A stretch of 64,000 bases of DNA, taken from positions 744,001-808,000 of the forward strand of contig NZ_RPFW01000003.1 of the NCBI RefSeq assembly GCF_007827045.1, given 5' to 3'. Position 1 is the stretch's first letter, and the number at the start of each line of letters is the position of its first letter. The position numbers and the translations under genes were made by a program. Of this stretch, positions 25,236 to 55,482 are shown piece by piece. The notes under the pieces are model-generated. The model worked only from the letters and a program-made list of their open reading frames with translations. It searched no databases and was not told where the DNA came from. The stretch comes from Trebonia kvetii. GTDB lineage: Bacteria; Actinomycetota; Actinomycetes; Streptosporangiales; Streptosporangiaceae.

Positions 25236-25365
25236 GCGGGCCCGATGGCGGTTTTTGCCGTCGGGCGCGCATCGGGGGGTACGGGGGGTCGTCCCCCCGG
25301 GAGATGCAGTCCTGATGCAGGTCCGATACGATGGCGGTTTTTGCCATCGGACCTGCATCAGGACT
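25236..25365 (-). repeat. Structured intra-operon repeat, copy 1
   Basis: Read on the operon (minus) strand. A 17-bp stem (arms 25349-25365 and 25308-25324) starts inside the VOC stop codon. It is topped by the invariant 6-bp tip GATGGC/GCCATC (25343-25348 and 25330-25335), with an A-rich 7-nt loop and the 5-nt bulge GTATC. An invariant G6-ACGA-C6 hairpin follows (25293-25298 and 25283-25288), then a second C6 tract. This copy has an extra imperfect 14-bp hairpin with the same loop (25236-25270). The related copies are at 52592-52682 and 55330-55419. Its stem sequence differs from theirs, but pairing is kept. Confidence 0.8.
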
Positions 25366-26251
25366 ACCGCAGCGTCCAGATGGTGTGCGGGGGAGTCTCC
25401 TCGTAGTCGTTCGGCCCGTAGCTGTCGTCCACCCGGTCCATGTCCGCCGCGAACTCCATCCGGCCGCCGCACGGTGCGTGGATGAACCGGAAGATGTTCG
25501 AACCGACCGTGTGCCTGCCGAGCCGCCGCGCCTCGTGCCAGCCCTTGTCGATCATGTCGTTGGCGCCGACGATCACCTCGTCGATCCGCGCCACCTCGAA
25601 GGCGCAGTGGTTGATCTGGTTCCGGTCGGGCCGGTGGCAGAGCAGCAGGGTGTGATGGTCGGTGTCACCAGGGGCCCGCATGAACACGCCGACCTTCGCG
25701 GGCCGGTCGGTGGGCACGAAGCCGAGCCGTTCCGTGTAGAACGCGACCGCCTCCTCCTTGCCCTCCTTCTTGATGTCGAGCGCCACGTGGCACAGCCGCA
25801 GCGGCTTGACCCTGCCGGGGTGCGCCAGCGGGTCGTTCCACCGGTTCACGTTGCCCGAGCGGTTGCTGCCGGGGAAGTTCGTCCGCCCCGTCACCGGCTG
25901 GCTCACCGCGAGCCCGACGCCGAACCCGGTCTCGTCGGTCGTGTGCGCCACCCCGTCCGCGTCGGTGTAGATCGACCGGTCGGACAGCAGGTTGGTCGCC
26001 AGCTTGTCCAGCGACTCCTGGCTGTCTCCTCCCCAGACGATCTCCCGCAGCGTCGGCCCGGACTGCACGGGCGGCGGCAGGCTCGGGTCATCGACGTCCC
26101 GCAGCTCGAGCACCTGGCCCGTCTGCGTCGCGAACCGCGCGCCATTCTCCCCGCCGTCCACCGGGTCAAGCCCGAAGTCGGTGAAGAAGCGAACGCACTC
26201 CTCGAGGTTCGGGACGCCGTAAACGACCCGTTCCACGCGCATGACCGTCAT
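25364..26251 (-). CDS. Two-domain VOC extradiol ring-cleavage dioxygenase
   Basis: A 295-residue type I extradiol dioxygenase of catechol/2,3-dihydroxybiphenyl 1,2-dioxygenase type. The N-terminal VOC module (about residues 1-110) is degenerate. The C-terminal module carries the Fe(II) ligands: His in RLCHVALDI, His in QINHCAFEV, Glu in GGRMEFAAD. It should open a catecholic ring as the entry step of this operon. ATG at 26251 has GGAG upstream. The stop codon is the start of the repeat's stem. The 110 bases before it (to the LysR gene) should hold the operon promoter; CTGCTAAGCAG at 26308-26318 is a dyad there. Confidence 0.88.
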   Translation of the reverse strand: MTVMRVERVVYGVPNLEECVRFFTDFGLDPVDGGENGARFATQTGQVLELRDVDDPSLPPPVQSGPTLREIVWGGDSQESLDKLATNLLSDRSIYTDADGVAHTTDETGFGVGLAVSQPVTGRTNFPGSNRSGNVNRWNDPLAHPGRVKPLRLCHVALDIKKEGKEEAVAFYTERLGFVPTDRPAKVGVFMRAPGDTDHHTLLLCHRPDRNQINHCAFEVARIDEVIVGANDMIDKGWHEARRLGRHTVGSNIFRFIHAPCGGRMEFAADMDRVDDSYGPNDYEETPPHTIWTLR

Positions 26252-51447: not shown

Positions 51448-53118
51448 TCAGATCTCGTTTCCCCAGTAGTAGCGTGCCGCCATCTCGATGAGCTGCAGCT
51501 TGACGTGCTGCTCGGTAGCGGTCATCAGCGGCTGGTCCGCAACCTGCGCGAACCCGCCGTTGGTGGCGACCGCCACGTCGGCGTCGCCGCGCTCGTCCAG
51601 GATGGGGTCGAGGCGGTCAAGCAGGTCATCCACGACTTCCGCCGCGGGACTTGCGACGTCGATCACGCCGAGGCTGACCACGATGCCCGGCTTGACAAGC
51701 GAGACAGGGAAGCGCGCCGCGGGGTCGGCCGGGTAATCGATGCTGAGCCGCGGGAACGGCGTCTCATCGAGCAGCGCGGCCACCGCCGTCGCGTCGTATC
51801 CCGAGCCGGTAAACGGCAGTGGCCCGGCGTCGGTCAGATCGAGCCCGACCCGGAACTCGGCGTGCGTCTCGAGGCCGTCGAACACGGCGCGGTCGGCCTC
51901 GATGAGCGCCGCGAGTGCCGCGGGCACGTCGATGCCCGCGGCCGCCGCGGCAGCCCTGCCCTCGACGGTCAGCAGCGGCACGTACAGCGGGTTCTCCAGC
52001 GGCACGAACAGCACGCCGTCCGCGGCGAGCGCCGCGATCTCCGCGCGCAGGATGGCCGCGAGCGCGTGACCCGCCGCCCGCACCGCGTCGATGTCCGCCG
52101 CCGACGCGAGCGCGGACCCGGCCGCGGCCAGGTAGCCGGGCGACGGCAGCGTGACGAACACGTTGCGGTCCACCGTGGCGAGCACCGGGACCGCCTCGGC
52201 CTTGGCAAGCCGCCCGGAGGCGGCGAGCAGGGCGGCGTCGGGCACCGCGCGAACCCGTTCGGCGGAAATGCCGGCGAGTTCCGTGAGCGGCGCGGACGCC
52301 GCAAGCGGCGCGAACCCGGCCACCTGGTCGTGCACCACGGACTCGAAATAGCTCCGCCGGTACTGCCCGTCGCTGCAGGCGGACAGCGTCAGCCGGCGCA
52401 GCGCGTGCGCCAGCGTGACCACGGCCTCGTCCCGCGCCGTCTCAAGCGCCGCGCCCGTCAGCGACGACGACGCGGCAAGCAGCGACGCCGGCCTGACCAG
52501 GGACCCGTGGTGGTCGATGTGATATCCGAAGTCGTCAGCCATCAAAGCCTCCGTCATGTTCGCAGCTTTGGTCCGCGCTGGCGCGGACAGCGGGGGGTAC
52601 GGGGGGTCGTCCCCCCGGGAGATAGAGCCGGTTAGTGCGCCCGATACGATGGCGCCTTTTGCCATCGGGCGCACTAACCGGCGGGCGCCGGCCCATTCGG
52701 GGAAGTCGAGGTCGAAGCCGGCCGCCCGCAGCACGTCCTCGCAGATCTTCTGGTCCTCGTCGGGGCTGCCGCCGGACACGCCGAGGCCGCCCACGATGAC
52801 ACCGTCCCGCTTGAGCGTGAAGCCGCCCTTGGTGGCGACGATCGGGTGCTGGCCCATCCGGCCGACCTGGGTGAAGAACACCGGGTCGGAGTTGCGCCAG
52901 CCCTCGAGCATGTAGGTGGGCCGCTGCATGACGGCGGCCGAGTAGGCCTTGGAGATCGCGATCGACGGTGTCATCGGCCGGGCGCCCTCCATCCGCTCGA
53001 CGAGCACGATGAAGCCGCCGTAGTCGACCGCCGCGATAGACAGCGCCTTGCCGAGTTCCTGCCCGCGGGCCCGCGCGTCGTCGACCAGCCTCCTGGCTTC
53101 CGCATACGGCAGTGTCAT
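51448..53118 (-). CDS. HbpS/GlcG-like domain read in frame into a MetE-like domain
   Basis: One open frame of 556 codons with two unrelated parts. Residues 1-145 are a HbpS/GlcG (DUF336) domain: GKALSIAAVDYGGFIVLVER and GGFTLKRDGVIVGGLGVSGG. Residues about 146-190 are translated from repeat copy 2 and look like no protein. From Met 193 onward comes a MetE/UROD-barrel domain (YHIDHHGSLVRPASLLA onward, 364 residues). It ends TNGGFAQVA, lacking the zinc Cys seen in cobalamin-independent methyltransferases. An internal ATG at 52542 has its own ribosome site, so two separate proteins are more likely than a functional fusion. ATG at 53118 has GGGAG upstream. Confidence 0.7.
   Translation of the reverse strand: MTLPYAEARRLVDDARARGQELGKALSIAAVDYGGFIVLVERMEGARPMTPSIAISKAYSAAVMQRPTYMLEGWRNSDPVFFTQVGRMGQHPIVATKGGFTLKRDGVIVGGLGVSGGSPDEDQKICEDVLRAAGFDLDFPEWAGARRLVRPMAKGAIVSGALTGSISRGDDPPYPPLSAPARTKAANMTEALMADDFGYHIDHHGSLVRPASLLAASSSLTGAALETARDEAVVTLAHALRRLTLSACSDGQYRRSYFESVVHDQVAGFAPLAASAPLTELAGISAERVRAVPDAALLAASGRLAKAEAVPVLATVDRNVFVTLPSPGYLAAAGSALASAADIDAVRAAGHALAAILRAEIAALAADGVLFVPLENPLYVPLLTVEGRAAAAAAGIDVPAALAALIEADRAVFDGLETHAEFRVGLDLTDAGPLPFTGSGYDATAVAALLDETPFPRLSIDYPADPAARFPVSLVKPGIVVSLGVIDVASPAAEVVDDLLDRLDPILDERGDADVAVATNGGFAQVADQPLMTATEQHVKLQLIEMAARYYWGNEI
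52540..52552 (-). promoter_or_regulatory. Internal ribosome site and start of the MetE-like gene
   Basis: On the minus strand, GGAGG (52548-52552), a five-base spacer and ATG (52540-52542) open a 364-residue MetE-like product beginning MADDFGYHIDHHGSL. The next in-frame ATG upstream (52557) has no ribosome site. This supports independent translation of the second domain of the 51448-53118 frame. Confidence 0.65.
52592..52682 (-). repeat. Structured intra-operon repeat, copy 2
   Basis: A 16-bp variable stem (arms 52667-52682 and 52627-52642), with the invariant tip GATGGC/GCCATC (52661-52666 and 52648-52653), bulge GTATC and 7-nt A-rich loop on the minus strand. It is followed by the invariant G6-ACGA-C6 hairpin (52611-52616 and 52601-52606) and a second C6 tract (52592-52597). 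It lies between the HbpS-like and MetE-like parts and is translated in frame. An extra 8-bp hairpin (GTCCGCGC/GCGCGGAC, 52571-52588) follows. Confidence 0.8.
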
Positions 53119-54506: not shown

Positions 54507-55325
54507 GTGACCACACCAGCACCGGCAGCCCCTGGCGGACCGCGGCGCCGCAAGCCGCCGAAGCCCGTCGAGGTCGTGTCCGTCGACTACATCTCACCGC
54601 GGATGGTCTCCGTGCTCGTCACCGGCGACAACCTGGACGCGTACGGCGAGGCCGCGCCGACCTCGCACCTGAAGGTGTTCCTGCCGGCCGAGGGCCAGGA
54701 CGAACCGCTGCTGCCGCAGCAGACGCCGGACGGTCCCGTCTACCCCGACGGCCCGCCGCCGGTTGTCCGCACCTACACGCCGCGCCGCTACGACCCGCAG
54801 ACCAGGATCCTGGAGATCCAGTTCCTGCTGCATGGGACCGGCCCGGCATCCGAGTGGGCGCAGCGCGCCAAGCCGGGCGACAAGCTCGCCGTGGGCGGCC
54901 CCGGCGGGAGGTTCTCGCTTGAGCCCGTCGCGGACCACTGGTGGCTCGCCGCCGACGAGTCCGCGATCCCCGCGGTCGGCACGCTGCTCGACGTCCTGCC
55001 GGAGACCGCGACGGTCGAGGTGCACATCGAGGTCGAGGGTCCTGACGACGAGATCGGCTTCGAGAGCCAGGCGAAGACCAGCATCACCTGGCACCACAGG
55101 AGCGGCGGCGGGGCGTTCGGCGCGGAGCTGGCGCGGGCCGCGCGCGAGGCGAGCATCCCGGACGGCGCGCGGGTCTGGGTGGCCTGCGAGGCGGCCGCGA
55201 TGCGCGACATCCGGCGGTACTTCCTCGTCGGCCGTAAGGTGCCGCGCGATGCGCTCGTCACCCGCGGCTACTGGCGCACCGGCGAGCAGAACCACCCCGA
55301 CCACGACTACGGCGAGGACGAATAG
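54507..55325 (+). CDS. Siderophore-interacting-type FAD reductase (SIP)
   Basis: A 272-residue FAD-binding oxidoreductase. The FAD motif VRTYTPRRYDPQTRILEIQF lies near residue 87, the GPGGRF nucleotide turn near 133, and the SIP C-terminal domain (WLAADESAIPAVGTLLDVLP, WVACEAAAMRDIRRYFL) follows. The family reduces ferric siderophores or other electron acceptors with NAD(P)H. Here, between an LLM enzyme and a LigM-like demethylase, it may supply electrons. GTG at 54507 lies 17 bases past the LLM stop. Repeat copy 3 begins five bases after its stop. Confidence 0.88.
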   Translation: MTTPAPAAPGGPRRRKPPKPVEVVSVDYISPRMVSVLVTGDNLDAYGEAAPTSHLKVFLPAEGQDEPLLPQQTPDGPVYPDGPPPVVRTYTPRRYDPQTRILEIQFLLHGTGPASEWAQRAKPGDKLAVGGPGGRFSLEPVADHWWLAADESAIPAVGTLLDVLPETATVEVHIEVEGPDDEIGFESQAKTSITWHHRSGGGAFGAELARAAREASIPDGARVWVACEAAAMRDIRRYFLVGRKVPRDALVTRGYWRTGEQNHPDHDYGEDE

Positions 55326-55329
55326 CCGA

Positions 55330-55419
55330 CGCGTGCTGAGCGCCCGATGGCAAAGGGCGCCATCTTATCGGGCGCTCAGCACGCGGTTATCTTCCGGGGG
55401 GACGACCCCCCGTACCCCC
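55330..55419 (+). repeat. Structured intra-operon repeat, copy 3
   Basis: Plus-strand orientation, matching transcription. A 16-bp variable stem (55330-55345 and 55370-55385) carries the invariant tip GATGGC/GCCATC (55346-55351 and 55359-55364), loop AAAGGGC and bulge TTATC. The invariant G6-ACGA-C6 hairpin (55396-55401 and 55406-55411) follows, then GTA and a C5 tract to 55419. It begins five bases past the SIP stop. Confidence 0.8.
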
Positions 55420-55482
55420 GGGACAAGTGCCAACCCCCATGTTGCCTTCAAGGCATCCGGCCGGTTAAAGTCCGTGCTTATT

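Follow-up and report, generated by a model that had tools for sequence, protein, structure and literature searches.

A putatively mobile 3′-end repeat of Trebonia kvetii with covarying stems that are probably completed from host DNA

The window analyzed here, a 64,000-nucleotide stretch of the Trebonia kvetii genome (contig NZ_RPFW01000003.1, positions 744,001 to 808,000), contains three copies of a hairpin repeat with an invariant inner part and an outer stem that differs between copies yet is paired in each, and the question it raises is how stems of different sequence come to pair so well. The copies lie where a reading of the window from its letters alone had placed them and have the features given there, namely the tip GATGGC/GCCATC, a 7-nt loop, a 5-nt bulge and a G6-ACGA-C6 / GTA / C5-6 block. 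We designate the bulged hairpin A, the G6-ACGA-C6 hairpin B and a further palindrome C. Assignments rest on the sequence together with the fold for hairpin A of copy 1, on the sequence for its second A-type hairpin, and on the sequence with a match to the B pattern for each hairpin B.

25364-26251, minus strand: VOC/glyoxalase gene (Glyoxalase PF00903), host of copy 1
25308..25365, minus strand: copy 1 hairpin A, perfect 17-bp outer stem, tip GATGGC/GCCATC, loop AAAAACC, bulge GTATC
25274..25301, minus strand: copy 1 hairpin B (CCGGGGGGACGACCCCCCGTACCCCCC)
25236..25271, minus strand: copy 1 second A-type hairpin, without a bulge (GCGCCCGACGGC-AAAAACC-GCCATCGGGCCCGC)
52627..52682, minus strand: copy 2 hairpin A, 16-bp outer stem, just after or in frame with an HbpS-like gene
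52592..52619, minus strand: copy 2 hairpin B
52571..52590, minus strand: copy 2 hairpin C (GTCCGCG-ccag-CGCGGAC)
55330..55385, plus strand: copy 3 hairpin A, 16-bp outer stem, bulge TTATC
55393..55420, plus strand: copy 3 hairpin B

The stop codon of the VOC/glyoxalase gene (25364-25366) is overlapped by the outermost stem bases of hairpin A of copy 1, in agreement with the sequence-only reading. The extra hairpin described for this copy is present, with the loop AAAAACC, but is better regarded as a bulge-less second A that follows B, an arrangement common to many copies (also L026, L040, L041, L046 and L070). Copy 3 starts 4 nt past the TAG stop (55323-55325) of a siderophore-interacting gene. 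The predicted RNA folds of copies 1, 2 and 3 have z values of -6.8, -7.1 and -9.7 relative to shuffled sequences; for hairpin B there are two competing folds, and in the predicted minimum the G6 is paired with the second C-run. The frame of the HbpS-like gene (51448-53118, minus strand) has no stop before copy 2 and is open through the whole element and beyond, and copy 2 may lengthen the HbpS-like protein by readable codons. The frames of some other genes also run through the element (L012 and L015).

The host genome (G000) is a 9.25-Mb draft of 93 contigs with an estimated contamination of 8.2%. It was searched for a hairpin A core defined as GATGGC-N7-GCCATC-NTATC with a variable outer stem of ~16 bp, and for hairpin B as the 20-base pattern G6-ACGA-C6-GTAC. 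The A core is present in 56 copies at ≤1 mismatch and in ~65 if the tip variant GATCGC/GCGATC is included (about 60 in what follows), and B has 42 exact matches. The reversed patterns of both gave 0 matches in this genome, which excludes chance as the source of the copies and confirms a structured repeat with further copies outside the window. From 5′ to 3′ the unit comprises hairpin A, a short ATCTCCC-like linker, hairpin B (G6-ACGA-C6-GTAC-C5-6) and, often, hairpin C or a second A; the sequence of C is variable (GTCCGC..GCGGAC, GTGCGGCGC..GCGCCGCAC, GCCGAGCCG..CGGCTCGGC). Tandem arrays with a spacing of ~75–95 bp occur at L009, L030, L060, L068 and L079. The array at L009 (G000:C11:424538-424707), within a predicted gene, has three 75-bp units that contain B and lack A. 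Because the ATC of the tip recurs in the bulge, the GAT of the tip can pair with either ATC, and in G007 (L319 and L334) a G-to-A change in this GAT is accompanied by ATT at both the tip and the bulge places. Of the eight genomes available for the genus, four contain module A, as do a few MAG contigs; most matches to a 17-base pattern in a wider set of genome contigs are due to chance, the true ones being in MAGs of the same genus and in one MAG labelled Frankia alni (L176).

The pairing of the outer stems was quantified over 72 distinct copies of A. Paired cells amount to 91.9%, as compared with 69.9% (s.d. 0.8) when the arms are shuffled, and cells changed on both sides number 330 as compared with 106; such two-sided changes are present at all 16 of the 16 outer pairs. 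The covariation score of 0.496 falls to 0.110 on shuffling and to 0.05–0.10 when the partner is slid by 1–3 columns, so that the proposal of a covarying structured repeat is well supported. The stems had also been described as unrelated in sequence. Unique stems do exist, but others fall into families with shared arms (CGCTTGCTGAGCGCCC, GGGTTGCGCGCCC and GGCTAGCGCGC).

The further claim that this covariation means that an RNA fold is maintained is not supported. Isolated mismatches in otherwise paired stems comprise 6 G-U, 19 A-C and 17 others, cells that are correlated rather than independent and that include three A-C cases (L014, L055 and L060) in which the A comes from a stop codon within the left arm. 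This is the opposite of tolerance for wobble pairs, and, as described below, the orthologous sites in relatives are empty. Because G-U is not the favored intermediate, there is no need to invoke selection on the stem of a sense RNA, although by itself the excess of A-C over G-U is only suggestive.

Sites carrying A were compared with the sister genomes of the genus, in which the flanking genes are 70–92% identical; the assemblies are drafts, and several genomes of the set are probably MAGs. At 13 of 13 sites there are orthologues without A, and only L021 is also occupied elsewhere (in G005). Further sites taken from G005–G007 follow the same pattern, with two more that are occupied in both G005 and G007. 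Both flanks were aligned at five sites, and ~80–150 bp are missing from most of the empty orthologues. The insertions measure 120 bp at L045, ~85 bp at L055, 79 bp at L077 and ~150 bp, equivalent to two units, at L060, and the fifth alignment, at L056, is less clean than these four. In none of the five, the flanks of which are strongly diverged, is there a clear target-site duplication. Clean insertion with presence or absence at orthologous sites is the behavior of short non-autonomous mobile repeats of the MITE, REP or MIRU kind. Because the orthologous sites are empty, the element appears to be a mobile, non-autonomous repeat and not a conserved regulatory RNA, in accord with one of the options first considered, a mobile palindromic element. 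Mobility is judged here from presence and absence; no donor event was identified, nor was a dedicated transposase found in the drafts of the host genome and seven sister genomes. At the G006 orthologue of the L056 site (L118), which lacks A, a different GC-rich hairpin sequence directly follows the stop codon, which suggests that other repeat families use similar sites.

The origin of the stem arms can be traced at several of these loci. At L084 in G005, the left arm (TGCGACTAGC) consists of the last codons of the host gene (Q-G-C-D-stop), a gene end that is also conserved in four orthologues lacking the element. Reverse-complementing the right arm (GCGCTAGTCGC) gives GCGACTAGCGC, precisely what the empty orthologue in the genome that contains the window reads; since then, one base of the left arm has changed. 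At L245 and its occupied orthologue L334, conserved W-R codons form part of one arm and their complement is in the other. Host-derived left arms are also present at L014 (L-A-stop), L056 (A-G-stop) and L021 (R-stop), the overlaps being short at several sites and some only 3–6 nt. No inverted copy of the gene end and no palindrome is present at any of the empty orthologous sites examined. A different relationship is seen at L037 and L060, where the gene is of unchanged length but now ends in the sequence of the commonest arm family in place of its own last codons, as though the right arm of the element had been copied onto the host. In the array at L079, the repeated 92-bp unit contains a right arm but no left one, and outside the core the arms of the middle copy do not pair; this array may represent a fresh state of the element. 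L005 and L047 are also poorly paired. At a site shared by two species (L248 and L319), several bases differ in both arms, and the stem is largely paired in L248 and fully paired in L319. Host-derived arms are not universal: families of identical arms recur at unrelated loci, which shows that an arm also moves together with the element or is imposed at the new location.

We consider it probable that the element is a mobile, non-autonomous 3′-end repeat and that template switching completes its stem with host DNA. The mobile unit, ~80–120 bp in length, would consist of the A core, the right arm, B and often C or a second A, and would insert at gene 3′ ends, mostly in sense orientation. An outer left arm would not be needed in the mobile unit, which would arrive without it and use the host DNA to its left, often the last codons and the stop. 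Fold-back template switching during DNA replication would then copy one arm onto the other in either of two directions. (i) Copying of host onto element would make the right arm the reverse complement of the gene end. (ii) Copying of element onto host would overwrite the last codons with the length of the gene kept. Long, nearly perfect and copy-specific stems would be the outcome; the frequent use of a host gene's last codons as one side of the hairpin would explain both the sequence differences between stems and their almost perfect pairing. A putative mobilizing enzyme is likely to recognize the element by its invariant tip and bulge. B and C, a stable pair of GC hairpins, would be the older part and would probably act as a terminator or 3′-end structure, so that insertions at gene ends do little harm. 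Template switching is known to create and maintain perfect hairpins (PMC8794818) and to homogenize the arms of inverted repeats (PMC8604942), and this one process would account for the host-derived arms, the overwritten gene ends, the unpaired copies and the matched differences alike. Against it, template switching has left the invariant 5-nt bulge in place, which requires separate selection, and the excess of A-C over G-U is not predicted by a symmetrical DNA process either.

The position of the copies relative to genes, for which approximate gene calls were made with a home-made caller based on codon usage, bears on the main competing explanation. The left arm has its outer end ≤12 nt from a sense stop in 19 of 38 cases, as compared with 8.4 expected from placement at any position and in either orientation within the same gaps (P about 1e-5), and the tie to gene 3′ ends in sense orientation noted in the window is therefore strong. 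It is not absolute, as had been supposed from the three window copies: 29 of the 42 primary (first-in-array) copies follow a sense gene and 13 follow an antisense gene. Nor are catabolic operons special, as also suggested, since the upstream genes include the HbpS-like and siderophore-interacting genes and many of other functions; with host genes of so many kinds, the tie is to gene ends.

Within the family, module B is far more widespread than A: it occurs in 112 of the 299 genomes and in 33 of the 68 genera. Outside the family it is rare. In other genera, B and a C-like hairpin lie directly 3′ of tRNA or tmRNA genes, U-tailed terminators or stop codons, and wherever an RNA gene lies just upstream, B is on the same strand. 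B and C thus appear to be an old 3′-end module, probably terminator-like, of which A would be the younger partner. The loci 3′ of tRNA or tmRNA genes are L261-L266, L269-L271, L274, L275, L277, L286, L289, L292, L295 and L299, and at some of them there is no other terminator between the RNA gene and B. The 5.4-Mb draft genome G204 has 86 copies of B at ≤1 mismatch, including tandem arrays of ~39-bp units (L276, L285, L294 and L297), some of them inside predicted reading frames.

The sense orientation at gene ends, the very stable folds, the very strong covariation and the same-strand location of B and C right behind RNA genes, terminators and stop codons are the features expected if A and B together formed a functional RNA, a 3′-end terminator or mRNA stabilizer spread by duplication, with pairing kept by selection on the RNA stem. 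We regard this as unlikely, because G-U mismatches are fewer than A-C, the sites are not conserved between sister species, a stem of 16–22 bp exceeds what a terminator needs, and the 13 primary copies noted above lack a preceding sense gene. Neither A nor B is followed by a U-run, so that they differ from intrinsic terminators with a GC hairpin and a U-run but may be of a U-less type. A terminator reading may hold for B and C at RNA genes without accounting for the stems of A.

Two other explanations make the host-matching arm part of the insertion itself. It is quite unlikely that the host flank is copied in inverted form into the element by the insertion reaction itself, or that this reaction employs the arm as a re-writable guide. 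If it did, each copy would fold with its own host gene through a hairpin-completing or self-retargeting mode of transposition undescribed before. We consider it slightly less likely again that the internal right arm acts as a guide that picks its target by pairing with the host strand, pairing thus preceding insertion. The match of this arm to flanking host sequence at several sites and the precise placement at stop codons are what such a guide would give, but there are unpaired copies, including the fresh-looking tandem array L079, for every match of 9–11 nt to a conserved gene end a fitting donor would be required, and no associated enzyme was found.

Very unlikely is a REP/BIME-type element moved by a Y1 tyrosine transposase (RAYT) that recognizes its hairpins. 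Short bulged palindromes, dimers, tandem arrays and an extragenic location at gene ends are the general form of REPs, but the one full Y1 transposase found in the host genome is the TnpA of an IS605-type element, beside TnpB (L082:4462-6096, on G000:C51), with no copy of the repeat, and none is present in the drafts of seven sister genomes, three of which carry A. There is also no GTAG tag, and GTAC adjoins B in reverse orientation only. A composite transposon was rejected: a 1-kb inverted pair (C11:133424/134509) encloses a short-chain dehydrogenase gene and a pair on C61 a transporter gene and others, and from these contents neither is an autonomous copy. Insertion into the hairpin loop of a pre-existing terminator was rejected on account of the empty orthologous sites, which have no palindrome. 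The A–B pattern had no match in viral contigs, and blastn gave no match in plasmids.

A number of known systems resemble the repeat in part. In integron attC sites, short motifs that do not vary and extrahelical bases accompany a stem of variable sequence whose folding is essential. The present element shares these features, but here the variable part is the outer stem and not the inner, and no cassette genes were seen. Guanidine-II riboswitches (mini-ykkC, RF01068) consist of a pair of ACGR-loop hairpins that precede the regulated gene. Hairpin B, a GC stem with an ACGA loop, is like one half of this aptamer, and arrays of B reach the gathering score of RF01068, with A–B copies of the host genome below it and no Rfam family at gathering score in the window. 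Membership was rejected, since there is one such hairpin per unit, with a loop that is often GCGA, C has other loops, and the location is at 3′ ends and after tRNA genes. B hairpins, accompanied only by C or arranged in arrays, score at or near the RF01068 cut-off at L294:1499-1554, L300:1460-1515, L271:1499-1547 and G000:C32:700243-700293; these are likely look-alikes and could give false RF01068 annotations in actinobacteria.

The nearest kinds are REPs and MIRUs, which are short mobile palindromes at gene boundaries. Like REP/BIME sequences, the repeat forms lineage-specific families of short extragenic palindromes with a stem irregularity, in many copies that are often clustered as dimers or arrays, and CGTC REPs likewise have no dedicated transposase (PMC3733652, a paper that does not mention Actinobacteria). 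It differs in its long copy-specific stems, host-derived arm and three-hairpin modular layout; no RAYT gene flanked by repeats was seen in the draft genomes, and, over the 72 A copies and the B copies, the foot of the hairpin has no GTAG/CGTC tag, A being preceded by the variable arm and B by GTAC in reverse orientation. MIRUs are also actinobacterial short mobile repeats at gene boundaries that do little damage, but they insert at start codons (PMC12548453), whereas the present repeat is found at stop codons and gene 3′ ends, requires no coupled ORF and is built of hairpins. No description of it was found in the open-access literature, and it is apparently an undescribed actinobacterial family of 3′-end repeats. 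In the mutation of quasipalindromes by template switching, the arms of an inverted repeat are likewise made identical by fold-back copying (PMC8794818, PMC8604942), but there the palindrome is native, whereas here a mobile element would give one arm and a host gene end the other. With its dated insertions and orthologous pairs, the element is a natural test case of whether template switching can make and maintain hairpins. Covariation is usually regarded as the strongest evidence for a functional RNA; here, at about 60 covarying loci, the comparative evidence points to a process at the level of DNA, a warning for RNA discovery that relies on covariation.
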